Source: Liolophura sinensis
Lineage: Eukaryota; Mollusca; Polyplacophora; Chitonida; Chitonidae
Direction of reading: 5' to 3'
Length of the DNA: 64,000 bases
NCBI RefSeq assembly: GCF_032854445.1
Contig: NC_088306.1
Coordinates: 1,786,873-1,850,872, forward strand
Part shown: in pieces, positions 45,600-61,300 of the stretch
Numbering within the stretch: position 1 is the first letter of the stretch
Layout of the letters: each line of letters starts with the position of its first letter
Notes under the pieces: generated by a model
Databases searched by the model: none
Told to the model about the DNA's origin: nothing
Seen by the model: the letters and a program-made list of their open reading frames with translations, nothing else
Made by a program: the position numbers and the translations under genes

Positions 45600-46176
45600 T
45601 AAATTAGTGTATTTATTGAAATGAGCAATTGTTCTATTCACAAAGCAGTCATCTTTTCTGTGATCTTTTATTTCAATTAAGACTGCCTTGTGATTTCAAA
45701 AGTTTGTGATAGCCGGGTATTGTGAAATCTTGTGTATTTGATAACAATCTGGGAATAAATTCAACAATTTTCAAAAAAAAAAAAAAAATACTTTGACATG
45801 CTCTCAGACGAACACTCTTGAAACTTTCTCATTTTCCTTTGACGATTGGAAGTGAACCAAAATGTAAACTTTAAAAAAGACAAAGAAACTGAAGTTTAGG
45901 CTATAATTATTTCCAATGTTACAAATGCTGTTAAATGTGGAAAAATTATCTATTAATGAAAAGTGTTGCAAAATGATACCGTACGGTCTTAACACTTTCG
46001 TCAAATACGTTATGAAACTTTAAGAAAGGATAAGCGTCAAGATTTTTGGAACAAATAACGATTAGTTCTGGTGTGTTTTATCAGAAAACCAAACAAAATG
46101 ACAAAAAAAGAGAAAAAAAACCCCCAACTCTACAACTTTACATAAATGATATAAAAACAAGAAAAGAAATAGCAAA

Positions 46177-46258
46177 TGGCAGCGGTGGGATTCGAACCCA
46201 CGCCTCCGAAGAGACTGGTGCCTTAAACCAGCGCCTTAGACCGCTCGGCCACGCTACC
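46177..46258 (-). tRNA. tRNA-Leu(AAG), canonical
   Basis: 82 nt. Acceptor GGTAGCG/CGCTGCC, A box TGGCCGAGCGG, anticodon stem CTGGT/ACCAG with loop TTAAGGC, long variable arm, T arm GTGGG-TTCGAAT-CCCAC. It is nearly the vertebrate Leu-AAG sequence. A T-rich stretch (TTCTTTTCTTG) follows. A good functional candidate. Confidence 0.95.
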
Positions 46259-46411
46259 AGATCCCATAGCCGTAGCGATCGCGTGTGATTTTAAAAGCTA
46301 AGAGGCATTCGGAAAGTGGCTCCTCTTAAGGAATAAAGGCAGGTGTGACGTTATTGTTGGGTGATACATAAGTATATTTTCCACTGTGATTTGTGTAAGC
46401 TGTTAAAATAT

Positions 46412-46697
46412 ATGAGAATTTAGTTTGTTTTTGAGAAAAAGTTTACTGCAGATGGGTGCTATGAGCCTATCCGCCATAGCGAAGGTTATCTTTGCAAAAT
46501 GTTATGATTTTACGTCCAGAAGCAAGAGCTGAACAATGTTAATGCATGACAAGTTGACTTCGCCAACTTCACCAGATGAATTTTCAGAAAAAGTAGTGTG
46601 CTCTTGTGTAACATATAAAATATGTGCTAACCGGAAGTGGTGTAGGCCTTGTTAGAATGTCAGTGTTTTTTTTTCCGAAATGTTCAATCATCTGTCA
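46412..46697. repeat. Spacer sub-repeat, example copy (~288 bp, 23 copies in the array)
   Basis: Runs from tatgagaatttagttt to the tctgtca preceding the tRNA. Copies per interval from left to right: 1, 2, 2, 1, 2, 1, 2, 3, 3, 2, 2 and 2 (last cut by the gap). Each holds gagcctatccgccatagcg (a possible 6-bp hairpin GCTATG/CATAGC), a ttcaccagatgaattttc block, and ends aatgtcagtg + T7-9 + ccgaaatgttcaatcat. Some copies are open for about 76 codons, but others have stops. Confidence 0.9.
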
Positions 46698-46779
46698 GGT
46701 AGCGTGGCCGAGCGGTCTAAGGCGCTGGTTATAGGCACCAGCCTCTCAGGAGGCGTGGGTTCGAATCCCACCGCTTCCA
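46698..46779 (+). tRNA. tRNA-Leu(TAG), lacks U33
   Basis: 82 nt. The anticodon arm reads CTGGT-TATAGGC-ACCAG, so position 33 is A instead of the near-universal U. The acceptor 3' strand CGCTTCC gives a T3-T70 mismatch. A T8 run follows. Function doubtful. Confidence 0.8.
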
Positions 46780-47222
46780 TACGGGTTTTTTTTAATTTTT
46801 GGCTTGAAATAAAATACGTGCTTTGCTTTGCCGAATACTTTGACATGCTCTCAGACGAGCACTCTTGAAACTTTCTCATTTTCCTTTGACGATTGGAAGT
46901 GAACCAAAATGTAAACTTTAAAAAAGACAAAGAAACTGAAGTTTAGGCTATGTCTATTTCCATTGTTACCAATGCTGTTAAATGTGGAAAAGATATCTAT
47001 TAATGAAAAGTGTTGCAAAATGATACCGTACGGTCTTAACACTTTCGTCAAATACGATATGAAACTTTAAGAAAGGAGAAGCGTCTGGATATTTGGAACA
47101 AATAACGATTAGTTCTGGTGTGTTTCATCAGAAAACCAAACAAAATGACAAAAAAAGAGACAAAAAAACCCCAACACCACAGCTTTACATAAATGATATG
47201 AAACAAGAAAAGAAATAGCAAA

Positions 47223-47304
47223 TGGCAGCGGTGGGATTCGAACCCACGCCTCCGAAGAGACTGGTGCCTTAAACCGGCGCCTTAGACCGCTCGGCCACGC
47301 TACC
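47223..47304 (-). tRNA. tRNA-Leu(AAG), T28C mismatch
   Basis: As the canonical copy, except that the anticodon stem is CCGGT against ACCAG, which breaks pair 28-42. Confidence 0.88.
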
Positions 47305-48032
47305 AGATCCCATTACCGTAGCGATCGCGTGTGATTTTAAAAGCTAAGAGGCATTCGGAAAGTGGCTCCTCTTAAGGAATAAAGGCAGGTGTGACGTTGT
47401 TGTTGGGTGATACACCAGTATATTGTCCACTGTGATTTTTGTAAGCTGTTAAAATATATGAGAGTTTAGTTTCTTTTTGAAAAAAAGTTTACTGCAGATG
47501 GCTGCTATGAGCCTATCCACCATAGCGAAGGTTAGGTTTGCAAAATGTTATGATTTTACGTCCAGAAGCAAGAGTCGAACAATGTTAATGCATGACAAGT
47601 TGACTTCGCCAACTTCACCAGATGAATTTTCAGAAAAAGTAGTGTGCTCTTGTGTAACATATAAAATACGTGCTAACCGGAAGTGGTGTAGGCCTTGTTA
47701 GAATGTCAGTGTTTTTTTTTCCGAAATGTTCAATCATCTGTCAGTTATGAGAGTTTAGTTTGTTTGTGAGAAAAAGTTTAATGCAGATGGCTGCTATGAG
47801 CCTATCCGCCATAGCGAAGGTTGGCTTTGCAAAATGTTATGATTTTACGTCCAGAAGGAAGAGTCGAACAATGTTAATGCATGACAAGTTGACTTCGCCA
47901 ACTTCACCAGATGAATATTCAGAAAAAGGAGTGAGCTCTTGTATAAACTATAAAATATGTGCTAACCGGAAGTGGTGTAGGCCTTGTTAGAATGTCAGTG
48001 TTTTTTTTTCCGAAATGTTCAATCATCTGTCA

Positions 48033-58712: not shown

Positions 58713-58793
58713 GGTAGCGTGGCCGAGTGGTCTAAGGCGCTGGTTTTAGGCACCAGTCTCTCAGGAGGCGTGGGTTCGAATCCACCGCTGCCA
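58713..58793 (+). tRNA. tRNA-Leu(TAG), one-base deletion
   Basis: 81 nt. The 3' strand of the T stem is short by one C (TTCGAATCCACCGC). Pseudogene or sequencing error. Confidence 0.78.
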
Positions 58794-59232
58794 TACGTGG
58801 TGTATTTTTTATTTCTTGCTTGATATAAAATACGTGCTTTGTTTTGCCGAATACTTTGACATGCTCTCAGACGAGCACTCTTGAAACTTTCTCCATTTTC
58901 CTTTGACGATTGGAAGTGAACCAGAATGTAAACTTTAAAAAAGACAAAGAAACTGAAGTTAGGCTATAATTATTTCCATTGTTACAAATGCTGTTAAATG
59001 TGGAAAAATTATCTATTAATGAAAAGTGTTGTAAAATGATATCGTACGGTCTTAACACTTTCGTCAAATACGATATGAAACTTTAAGAAAAGAAGAAGCG
59101 TCTGGATTTTGGACAAATAACGATTAGTTCTGATGTGTTGCATCAGGAAACCAAACGAAATGACGAAAAAGACAAACAAAACCAACTCCACAACTTTACA
59201 TAAATGATATAAAACAAAAAGAAAATAGCAAA

Positions 59233-59314
59233 TGGCAGCGGTGGTATTCGAACCCACGCCTCCGAAGAGACTGGTGCCTGAAACCAGCGCCTTAGACCGC
59301 TCGGCCACGCTACC
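59233..59314 (-). tRNA. tRNA-Leu with anticodon CAG
   Basis: The loop reads TTCAGGC instead of TTAAGGC (A34C). The anticodon is therefore CAG, still leucine but reading CUG. The T arm also has C61A, breaking pair 53-61, so function is uncertain. Confidence 0.85.
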
Positions 59315-60043
59315 AGATCCCATAACCGTACCGATCGTGTGTGATTTTAAAAGCTAAGAGGCATTCGGAAAGTGGCTCCTCTTAAGGGAATAAAGGCAGG
59401 TGTGACGTTATTTTTGGGTGATACACCAGTATATTGTCCACTGTGATTTGTGTAAGCTGTTAAAATATATGAGTTTAGTTTGTTTTTGAGAAAAAGAGTT
59501 TACTGCAGATGGCTGCTATGAGCCTATCCGCCACAGCGAAGGTTAGCTTTGCAAAATGTTATGATTTTACGTCCAGAAGCAAGAGCTGAACAATGTTAAT
59601 GCATGACAAGTTGACTTCGCCAACTTCACCAGATGAATTTTCAGAAAAAGGAGTGTGCTCTTGTGTAACCTATAAAATATGTGCTAACCGGAAGCGGTGT
59701 ACGCCTTGTAAGAATGCCAGTGTTTTTTTTTTCCGAATTGTTCAATCATCTGTCAGTTATGAGAGTTTAGTTTGTTTTTGAGAAAAAGTTTACTGCAGAT
59801 GGCTGTTATGAGCCTATCCACCATAGCGACGGTTAGCTTTGCAAAATGTTATGATTTTACGTACAGAAGCAAGAGTCGAACAATGTTAATGCATGACAAG
59901 TTGACTTCACCAACTTCACCAGATGGATTTTCAGAAAAAGGAGTGAGCTCTTGTATAACCTATAAAATATGTGCTAACCGGAAGTGGTGTAGGCCTTGTT
60001 AGAATGTCAGTGTTTTTTTTCCGAAATGTTCCACCATCTGTCA

Positions 60044-60125
60044 GGTAGCGTGGCCGAGTGGTCTAAGGCGCTGGTTTTAGGCACCAGTCTCTCAGGAGGC
60101 GTGGGTTCGAATTCCACCGCTGCCA
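60044..60125 (+). tRNA. tRNA-Leu(TAG), C61T
   Basis: Only the T arm (TTCGAAT-TCCAC) differs from the canonical copy, giving a G53-U61 wobble. Confidence 0.88.
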
Positions 60126-60566
60126 TACGCGGTGTTTTTTTTTATTTCTTGCTTGATATAAAATACGTGCTTTGTTTTGCCGAATACTTTGACATGCTCT
60201 CAGACGAGCACTCTTGAAACTTTCTAATTTTCCTTTGACGATTGGAAGTGAACCAGAATGTAAATTTTAAAAAAGACAAAGAAACTGAAGTTTAGGCTAT
60301 AATTATTTCCATTGTTACAAATGCTGTTAAATGTGGAAAAATTGACTATTAATGAAAAGTGATGTAAAATGATACCGTACGGTCTTAACACTTTCGTCAA
60401 ATACGATATGAAACTTTAAAAAGGAGAAGCGTCTGGATTTGGAACAAATAACGATTAGTTCTGATGTGTTTCATCAGGAAACCAAACGAAATTACAAAAA
60501 AGACGAACAAAACCCCAACTCCACAACTTTACATAAATGATATAAAACAAAAAAGGAAATAGCAAA

Positions 60567-60647
60567 TGGCAGCGGTGGGATTCGAACCCACGCCTCCGAA
60601 GAGACTGGTGCTTAAACCAGCGCCTTAGACCGCTCGGCCACGCTACC
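60567..60647 (-). tRNA. tRNA-Leu(AAG), one-base deletion in anticodon loop
   Basis: 81 nt. The loop is TTAAGC (6 nt, one G lost 3' of the anticodon). Pseudogene or assembly error close to the gap. Confidence 0.78.
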
Positions 60648-61300
60648 AGATCCCATAACCGTATCGATCGCGTGTGATTTTAAAAGCTAAGAGGCATTCG
60701 GAAAGTGGCTCCTCTTAAGGAATAAAGGCAGGTGTGACGTTATTGTTGGGTGATACACCAGTATATTTTCCACTGTGATTTGTGTAAGCTGTTAAAATAT
60801 ATGAGAGTTTAGTTTGTTTTTGAGAAAAAGTTTAATGCAGATGGGTGCTATGAGCCTGTCCGCCATAGCGAAGGTTAGCTTTGCAAAATGTTATGTTTTT
60901 ATGTCCAGAAGCAAGAGCTGAACAATGTTAATGCATGACAAGTTGACTTCGCCAACTTCACCAGATGAATTTTCAGAAAAAGGAGTGTGCTCTTGTGTAA
61001 CCTATAAAATATGTGCTAACCGGAAGCGGTGTACGCCTTGTAAGAATGTCAGTGTTTCTTTTTTCCCCGAAATGTTCAATCATCTGTCAGTTATGAGAGT
61101 TTAGTTTGTTTTTGAGAAAAAGTTTACTGCAGATTGGCTGTTATGAGCCTATCCACCATAGCGACGGTTAGCTTTGCAAAATGTTATGATTTTACGTACA
61201 GAAGCAAGAGTCGAACAATGTTAAAAACATGACAAGTTGACTTCGCCAACTTCACCAGATGAATTTTCAGAAAAAAGGAGTGAGCTCTTGTATAACCTAA

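Follow-up and report, generated by a model that had tools for sequence, protein, structure and literature searches.

The 64-kb window, the whole stretch of chiton DNA analysed here, contains a tandem leucine tRNA array at 45789..61300, with Leu-AAG genes on the minus strand and Leu-TAG genes on the plus strand. Of the 27 tRNAs that ARAGORN detects in the window, 23 are tRNA-Leu genes whose strands strictly alternate between 46176 and 60648. The plus strand carries 11 Leu-TAG genes, and the minus strand carries 10 Leu-AAG genes, one Leu-CAG gene (59232) and one gene with an ambiguous anticodon (60566). All 27 tRNAs also lie above the Rfam RF00005 gathering score of 29 (range 38–64 bits), and the two programs together confirm the alternating array of 12 minus-strand and 11 plus-strand leucine tRNAs proposed in the preliminary description. 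That account had assigned all 12 minus-strand copies to Leu(AAG/CAG), which holds for 10 AAG copies and one CAG copy but not for the remaining copy, whose anticodon loop is broken.

Each repeat unit is ~1.04–1.63 kb long and comprises one Leu-AAG and one Leu-TAG gene facing away from each other, together with a 289-bp element. The strict strand alternation arises because each unit holds one AAG and one TAG gene. The units follow one another head to tail with the same tRNA gene set, as is characteristic of tandem tRNA gene arrays, and their cores are 92.8–99.1% identical when aligned, far above chance. This anatomy supports the tandemly repeated, two-gene divergent/convergent unit suggested initially. 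The regular spacing also suggested is found on the convergent side, where the spacers between the TAG and AAG 3′ ends measure 438–446 nt in 11 of 11 units (for example, 46780..47221), but not on the divergent side, where the 11 measured spacers range from 436 to 1017 nt. Divergent spacing varies because the 289-bp element (exemplified by 46411..46697), which precedes each TAG gene, occurs once, twice or three times per unit.

The array starts at 45789, the base directly after the poly-A of a LINE, and its right end abuts a run of 200 N at 61301..61500, exactly the bounds first reported. This assembly gap cuts off the right end of the array, so that the true copy number may differ from the 23 genes seen. 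Two plus-strand tRNA-Gln genes, absent from the preliminary description, lie on either side of the Leu array. The left pair (39649 and 39911; 39649..39984) is accompanied by Gln-unit repeat similarity that extends to ~40684, beside the 5′ end of the LINE, while beyond the right pair (62181 and 62449; 62181..62521) Gln genes and Gln-unit repeats continue rightward on the same chromosome.

Most gene copies in the window deviate from a canonical tRNA structure. In a strict cloverleaf check, only 3 of the 23 are clean: the first Leu-AAG gene (46176–46259, minus strand), the copy at 48557–48640 and the sole lesion-free Leu-TAG gene of the window (55743–55824, plus strand; Rfam 60.5 bits). Among the remaining copies, the plus-strand Leu-TAG gene at 46698..46779 lacks U33 and has a U:U at acceptor pair 3, as do the copies at 48033 and 49368. 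The minus-strand gene at 59232..59315 carries the anticodon CAG at the AAG position along with a broken T-stem pair, and the last gene before the gap (60566..60648, minus strand) has an anticodon loop one base short. A single stem mismatch need not kill a tRNA, and two window copies fail solely through a G:U at 53:61; when that pair is allowed, 5 of the 23 are clean.

Structural lesions account for 14 of 22 distinct changes in the AAG genes (11.2 expected at random) and 13 of 22 in the TAG genes (12.2 expected), so that no depletion of lesions relative to random placement was found in the window genes of either type. Compared with equal-sized windows, gene diversity falls at the 45th percentile for TAG and the 14th for AAG, and the ratio of gene to flank variation is 0.88 and 0.44, respectively. 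Seven other gene sets of the same genome show ratios of 0.14–0.64. Because AAG genes vary less than the sequence around them and the seven other sets show such ratios, selection has likely acted over longer times, and drift is likely not the whole story. From these sequence patterns, we read the locus as a birth-and-death tRNA array that is largely decayed in the window.

Copies elsewhere in the genome were counted by exact-pattern searches, a genome-wide count that the preliminary description had proposed. Counts from a DNA search with the unit were set aside because that search overlooked the window array and most of C7:25410001-25420000. These searches revealed 74 loci, of which 23 belong to the window array, 48 to a second, larger array on another chromosome and 3 are solitary, placing 71 of 74 within the two arrays. 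In the sister array, 17 of 48 loci match exactly throughout the three stretches tested; these stretches omit gene positions 45–51. The arrays do not differ significantly in their share of clean copies (3/23 versus 17/48; Fisher P = 0.089), and the two counts follow different criteria. Genome-wide, 22 genes match at all three stretches (11 AAG and 11 TAG). The two arrays contain 20 of these 22 and so, as judged from gene sequence, seem to provide most of the CUN-reading leucine tRNAs AAG and TAG. A further Leu pattern, which runs one column off register, gave 95 Leu-type matches at up to two mismatches. These matches reveal arrays of Leu type on both C5 and C13, together with 12 dispersed matches, several of which were listed without their sequence; a few diverged Leu-AAG/TAG genes may therefore lie outside both arrays.

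Two copies in the sister array combine features of both gene types. The copy at C7:25421183 has a TAG-type body with an AAG-type 3′ flank and shares a rare change with its plus-strand neighbor, and at C7:25423644 a TAG body is followed by ~63 nt of AAG-type 3′ flank. These two copies suggest that facing genes sometimes recombine across strands. An origin of the AAG/TAG pair by inverted duplication was also considered. Opposite-strand alignments of the unit to the window span 83–106 bp, covering the gene and little flank; the similarity is thus roughly gene-sized, and no larger inverted duplication is visible.

The element at the left edge of the array (40689..45788, plus strand) is an L1-like LINE of ~5.1 kb with an ORF1, an endonuclease, a reverse transcriptase (RT) plus zinc finger, and a poly-A tail. 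It is ~51 nt shorter at its 5′ end than its sister copies, and its endonuclease and RT do not share a reading frame. The RT matches L1 ORF2p at about 1e-54 and R2 at about 1e-18; the element is L1-like and, as in the TRE3 type, combines an endonuclease, an RT and a zinc finger. The flanks of the window copy are a Gln repeat on the left and Leu spacer on the right. A simple insertion with target-site duplication was rejected for this copy, as its two sides have no common flank of at least 9 nt.

Ten of the 40 listed copies of this LINE lie inside known tRNA arrays, which make up 0.07% of the genome. Among seven copies examined at the sequence level, five lie downstream of a tRNA-like gene and point the same way, at distances of 49, 103, 103, 123 and 162 nt (P = 0.003 if place and orientation are random, with a distance bound set after the data were seen). 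Of these five, three copies on C5 have target-site duplications; the C10 and C12 copies fit the distance, but no target-site duplication was found at either. The two other examined copies, in the window and at C7:25420229, depart from this spacing, and their flanks are mismatched. Three further copies fit by coordinates, bringing the count to 8 of 10 in-array copies (P = 4e-5, with the same post hoc bound). The insertions vary in their target duplications and flanks, in contrast to a single fixed target sequence, and occur in Leu and Thr arrays and, judging by coordinates, in Gln arrays.

These placements tentatively point to an animal L1-type LINE that may have evolved the TRE3 habit independently, an idea we consider quite possible but short of an even chance. 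Such an element would recognize Pol III complexes on tRNA genes of several isotypes and insert ~50–160 nt behind them in the same direction, and its filling of arrays would supply homology for joining and reshuffling, as in the fusion of the Leu array into the Gln array. Alternatively, the enrichment could reflect survival of insertions in harmless arrays rather than targeting. This alternative, which we regard as rather unlikely though worth weighing, fits the tolerance of arrays to insertions, the 30 of 40 listed copies outside known arrays and the two of seven examined copies off the position rule; however, it does not anticipate the shared orientation and 49–162-nt distances of the five fitting copies, or the agreement of 8 of 10 in-array copies.

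Taken as a whole, the locus is probably best explained as a tandem array generated by unequal exchange, with redundant copies that drift, a sister array and a role as a LINE landing zone. The unit anatomy is directly observed; the nuclear array would have grown by unequal exchange of the ~1.04–1.63-kb AAG/TAG unit, within which the 289-bp element would have expanded on its own to one to three copies. Because the copies are redundant, they would be free to drift, leaving most window copies with a structural lesion, while some clean copies, mostly in the sister array, probably supply the cell. Facing genes may at times exchange across strands. tRNA arrays would also be a favored landing zone of an L1-like LINE that tends to insert ~50–160 nt behind tRNA genes in the same direction, possibly guided by the Pol III machinery. 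The LINE at 40689–45788 visibly forms the seam between the Gln and Leu arrays, and the fusion of two arrays may be how this seam originated.

A selected dosage amplification, in which most or all copies are transcribed and supply two CUN-reading tRNAs in step, is an unlikely explanation. It is consistent with the concentration of nearly all such genes found in two arrays, the equal numbers of AAG and TAG genes exact at all tested stretches, the Rfam scores of every copy and the terminator-like T runs, since a run of four T starts 6–11 nt past the gene end in 23 of 23 array genes. Against it stand lesions in 20 of 23 window copies (18 of 23 if G:U at 53:61 is allowed), the lack of lesion depletion and TAG genes that are almost as variable as their flanks. 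The AAG (read as IAG) and UAG anticodons both decode the single CUN box. The preliminary description had proposed a coupling of two leucine codon families, which does not apply to anticodons of one box, and an amplified decoding, which appears doubtful for the window array given 3 of 23 structurally clean copies and changes that hit structure about as often as random ones.

The same account also raised the possibility of a tRNA-bearing satellite, spread by recombination without a translational role and carrying its tRNA genes as passengers. Near-neutral variation, the many damaged copies and the nested expansion of the non-tRNA 289-bp element lend this view partial support. A pure satellite is nonetheless quite improbable, as almost all genes found for the two isoacceptors, including 20 of the 22 exact-match genes, sit in the two arrays and clean copies persist in both. 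A further proposal, that the array acts mainly as a chromatin barrier or boundary, would rest on analogy with the human 1q23.3 tRNA repeat (PMC4041453), for which such a role has been put forward; the array is AT-rich, whereas the human unit is GC-rich, and we consider this role very improbable. An assembly artefact, for which the adjoining 200-N gap might be cited, is scarcely credible given unit copies that are 1–7% apart with private changes and a diverged sister array.

Several known systems resemble the window array. In the human 1q23.3 tandem repeat, the unit is 7.3 kb long and GC-rich, carries five tRNAs (Leu, Gly, Glu, Gly, Asp) on both strands and binds CTCF (Darrow and Chadwick 2014, PMC4041453). 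This repeat shares with the window array its tandem units, several tRNA genes on both strands and an animal host; the window units are shorter (1.04–1.63 kb) and hold two isoacceptors of one amino acid, with most copies damaged. Arrays that mix tRNA genes on the two strands are uncommon in animals, as the preliminary description had supposed, but not without precedent. In Entamoeba (PMC2652664), nearly all tRNA genes lie in 25 array units with short tandem repeats in between, which resembles the internal repeats of the chiton unit, although Entamoeba is a protist and its units hold up to five tRNA genes. Nematostella and teleosts have tRNA gene clusters of fifty or more (PMC2888827), and the Arg(TCT)/Thr cluster illustrated there is somewhat like the C12:24.45 Mb array of the chiton genome; adjacent pairs in those clusters are mostly parallel, whereas window pairs are antiparallel and serve one amino acid.

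The LINE likewise invites comparison with known elements. Dictyostelium TRE3 (PMC5911963, PMC5006619) inserts downstream of tRNA genes in the same direction, with a TRE3-type range of 40–150 bp; five of seven examined chiton copies lie at 49–162 nt, and the two with mismatched flanks do not follow this pattern. Nearly every copy of a TRE3-type element adjoins a tRNA gene; of the listed chiton copies, a quarter (10/40) lie in known arrays. The chiton host is an animal, and the likeness would be one of habit. The zebrafish Dewa LINE (PMC3706591) is another animal LINE found in tRNA-Leu spacer and is listed among target-specific elements; the chiton LINE varies in its insertion sequences and has entered Leu and Thr arrays and, judging by coordinates, Gln arrays. 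No prior report of the window array or its LINE was found in the open-licence PMC literature.

On its own, the array adds another case to the known tandem tRNA genes, its antiparallel unit for a single amino acid being unusual, and it provides a natural setting in which to test how surplus tRNA copies degenerate and are renewed. The LINE lead is more novel than the array itself. tRNA arrays seem to be favored landing sites of this element, and the habit of settling just behind tRNA genes is best known from slime moulds. If an animal genome does harbor a TRE3-like LINE that acts on several isotypes, the repeated evolution of Pol III-guided insertion would become testable, as would the possibility that such elements drive the turnover of tRNA arrays.

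The Leu array of the window (C12:1786873-1850872 in the 609-Mb assembly) is real. ARAGORN, run on the whole window, places 23 tRNA-Leu genes with strictly alternating strands between 46176 and 60648, which bears out the 12 minus-strand and 11 plus-strand genes of the preliminary description. All 11 plus-strand genes are Leu-TAG, and the minus-strand genes comprise ten AAG, one CAG and one with an ambiguous anticodon loop. Two tRNA-Gln genes border the array on either side, and all 27 window tRNAs (23 Leu and four Gln) exceed the Rfam gathering score. Each unit runs from AAG (minus) through a divergent spacer to TAG (plus) and a convergent spacer; this order, with unit cores 92.8-99.1% identical, confirms the proposed two-gene divergent/convergent unit. 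The regular spacing also claimed holds for the convergent spacer (438-446 nt in 11/11 units) but not for the divergent one, whose length (436-1017 nt, 11 measured) varies because a 289-bp element 5' of the TAG gene is present one to three times. This element contains ACCGGAAGTG, which occurs 11 times in the window array, 11 times in 30 kb of C7 and nowhere else in the window, and which we take to resemble an ETS-factor site. A four-T run begins 6-11 nt 3' of the gene in all 23 Leu copies. The left end of the array adjoins the poly-A of a LINE, whose last base is 45788, and the right end is a run of 200 Ns (61301-61500). The suggestion that the unit couples two leucine codon families is not upheld: anticodons AAG (I34) and UAG both read the CUN leucine box, and the unit therefore couples two readers of one box.

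Two genome-wide pattern searches, one around the anticodon (≤2 mismatches; 66 places) and one with the 3' third of the gene (≤1 mismatch; 64 places), merge by position into 74 Leu-AAG/TAG loci. The window accounts for 23 of these and a sister array (C7:25381001-25429260) for 48; the other three are solitary. In the C7 array, 40 of 47 neighbour pairs are on alternate strands, and ARAGORN calls three more genes there that are absent from the merge (25422072, 25422597 and 25429703). The solitary AAG gene L019 and TAG gene L021 agree with the clean consensus, and the solitary AAG gene L020 is missing one T-arm base. Genes exact at three tested stretches (positions 1-26, 18-44 and 52-82) number two AAG and one TAG in the window, eight AAG and nine TAG in C7, and one of each among the solitary genes, 20 of the 22 lying inside the two arrays.

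Many array copies carry lesions. Each full-length gene was mapped to a cloverleaf, with standard pairs and a chosen set of universally conserved bases required; 3/23 window copies are lesion-free, as are 4/13 ARAGORN genes in the examined part of C7. Window copies 52273 and 60044 fail solely through a G:U at pair 53:61, two copies are one base short, and three TAG copies have in common a missing U33 and an acceptor-stem U:U. A lone mismatch need not abolish tRNA function. Among 32 full-length genes from both arrays, distinct changes strike structure about as often as random changes (AAG, 14/22 versus 11.2 expected; TAG, 13/22 versus 12.2). Diversity in the window array is 0.043 for the TAG gene, 0.024 for the AAG gene and 0.034-0.055 for spacer parts. 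Gene-to-flank diversity ratios are 0.88 (TAG) and 0.44 (AAG) in the window, 0.44 (TAG) and 0.54 (AAG) in C7, and 0.31 (C5 Leu-CAG), 0.21 (Arg), 0.35 (Thr-CGT), 0.64 (C10 Thr) and 0.14 (Gln) in the remaining sets. Of these nine sets, window TAG thus shows the weakest constraint, and the other eight all bear signs of it. On sequence evidence, the most likely interpretation of the window array is a birth-and-death tRNA array with an unusual antiparallel layout, of which this copy has largely decayed.

The AAG and TAG genes of a unit form facing inverted repeats of ~82 bp. The minus-strand gene C7:25421183 has a TAG-type body with an AAG-type 3' flank, and its body shares a rare change with the plus-strand neighbour 25420660; C7:25423644 (plus) runs on into ~63 nt of AAG-type 3' flank. 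From both we infer conversion and exchange between facing genes.

tRNA arrays are common in the Liolophura sinensis genome. ARAGORN identifies a one-strand Leu-CAG array (C5:6577111-6649634, genome pieces L026-L033; 34 CAG, three CAA and one 'Met' call) containing three LINE insertions, a Thr array on C10, and a largely alternating array of 15 Arg-TCT(-) and 14 Thr-CGT(+) genes at 24.45 Mb (C12:24448808-24484072, L035-L039), so opposite-strand pairing is not exclusive to Leu. A fourth Leu-type array (C13:16703729-16725855; 14 matches in the pattern search), whose anticodon is probably CAA, holds one LINE copy. On C12 the window array is flanked by Gln units; tRNA-Gln genes lie to its right (window 62181-62521; L009, L010), also past the right end of the window, and Gln-unit repeats recur by DNA similarity further along C12 and on C11 (C11:4576259-4606753). 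As in the Liolophura unit, tRNA genes occupy both strands of a 7.3-kb unit described at human 1q23.3 (PMC4041453). According to the survey in PMC2888827, Nematostella and teleosts have clusters that reach fifty tRNA genes or more, and neighbouring tRNA genes are mostly parallel.

The window also holds minisatellites of 41 bp (2063-3058), 42 bp (11793-14891), 57 bp (15609-16454) and 20 bp (27320-28659), some of which keep long frames open on both strands. Two frames at 30851-33583 match successive parts of DUF229 (sulfatase-like) and are probably exons of one gene. Broken frames at 63144-63965 (minus) resemble a Tc1/mariner-type transposase.

The LINE at 40689-45788 encodes an endonuclease domain, a reverse transcriptase (RT) and a zinc finger. 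The closest solved structure to its RT is human L1 ORF2p (~1e-54), R2 being much weaker (~1e-18). A Pfam search of ORF1 gave no match; zinc-knuckle-like motifs can be read from its sequence. The window copy and six other near-full-length copies (95.2-98.5% identical to it) were examined; ORF1 (460 aa) and ORF2 (1214 aa) are both open in one of the seven, from which the family looks recent. A related second family also populates the arrays of C5 and C7 and the Arg/Thr array of C12. The 5' part of the window LINE was used as query and 40 of 111 candidates were scored, giving at least 40 copies genome-wide among the matches listed. Ten of these 40 lie within tRNA arrays (C5, C7, C10, C12 and C13) versus 0.03 expected, the arrays being those known from tRNA searches (422 kb, 0.069% of the genome); without the window copy the count is 9/39 (binomial 8e-21, copies treated as independent). 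Of 13 flank or non-array pieces (116 kb), ten have no LINE match; weak matches (64-69%) occur in L001 (by a tRNA-Thr gene), L010 (by Gln genes) and L034 (by the C5 array). The matches listed also include LINE clusters at C11:22217415-22238115, C12:19777151-19848625, C8:38901679-38920560, C6:20468400-20498196 and C2:25526841-25579460.

For five of the seven examined copies, a tRNA-like gene pointing the same way lies 49-162 nt upstream of the LINE: C10 Thr (123 nt), C12 Thr-CGT (103 nt) and three in C5 Leu (103, 49 and 162 nt), one of the five upstream genes being known by similarity only, with no ARAGORN call. Target-site duplications flank all three C5 copies, two of them exact (24 and 11 nt) and the third longer but imperfect; no such duplication was detected at the C10 and C12 copies. 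By coordinates only, assuming ~51 nt more at the LINE 5' end, copies at C13 (~134 nt), C7:25404290 (~32 nt) and C12:1913835 (~40-90 nt, beside a Gln repeat) also fit. With 50% orientation and uniform position within a 440-nt spacer, and with a distance bound set after the data were seen, the probability is 0.003 for 5/7 and 4e-5 for 8/10. The two misfits, the window copy and C7:25420229, have left and right flanks of different origin. The window LINE has a Gln repeat on its left and Leu spacer on its right, and is thus a seam between two tRNA arrays, which may have arisen when insertions recombined with each other or when an insertion was accompanied by a deletion. Dictyostelium TRE3 LINEs are cited as a parallel for a tRNA-associated LINE (PMC5006619), and a tRNA-Leu spacer is said to be the target of zebrafish Dewa (PMC3706591). 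Judged from the sequence context of its copies, the Liolophura element appears to land behind tRNA genes, and such an animal LINE is the most promising lead to emerge here.
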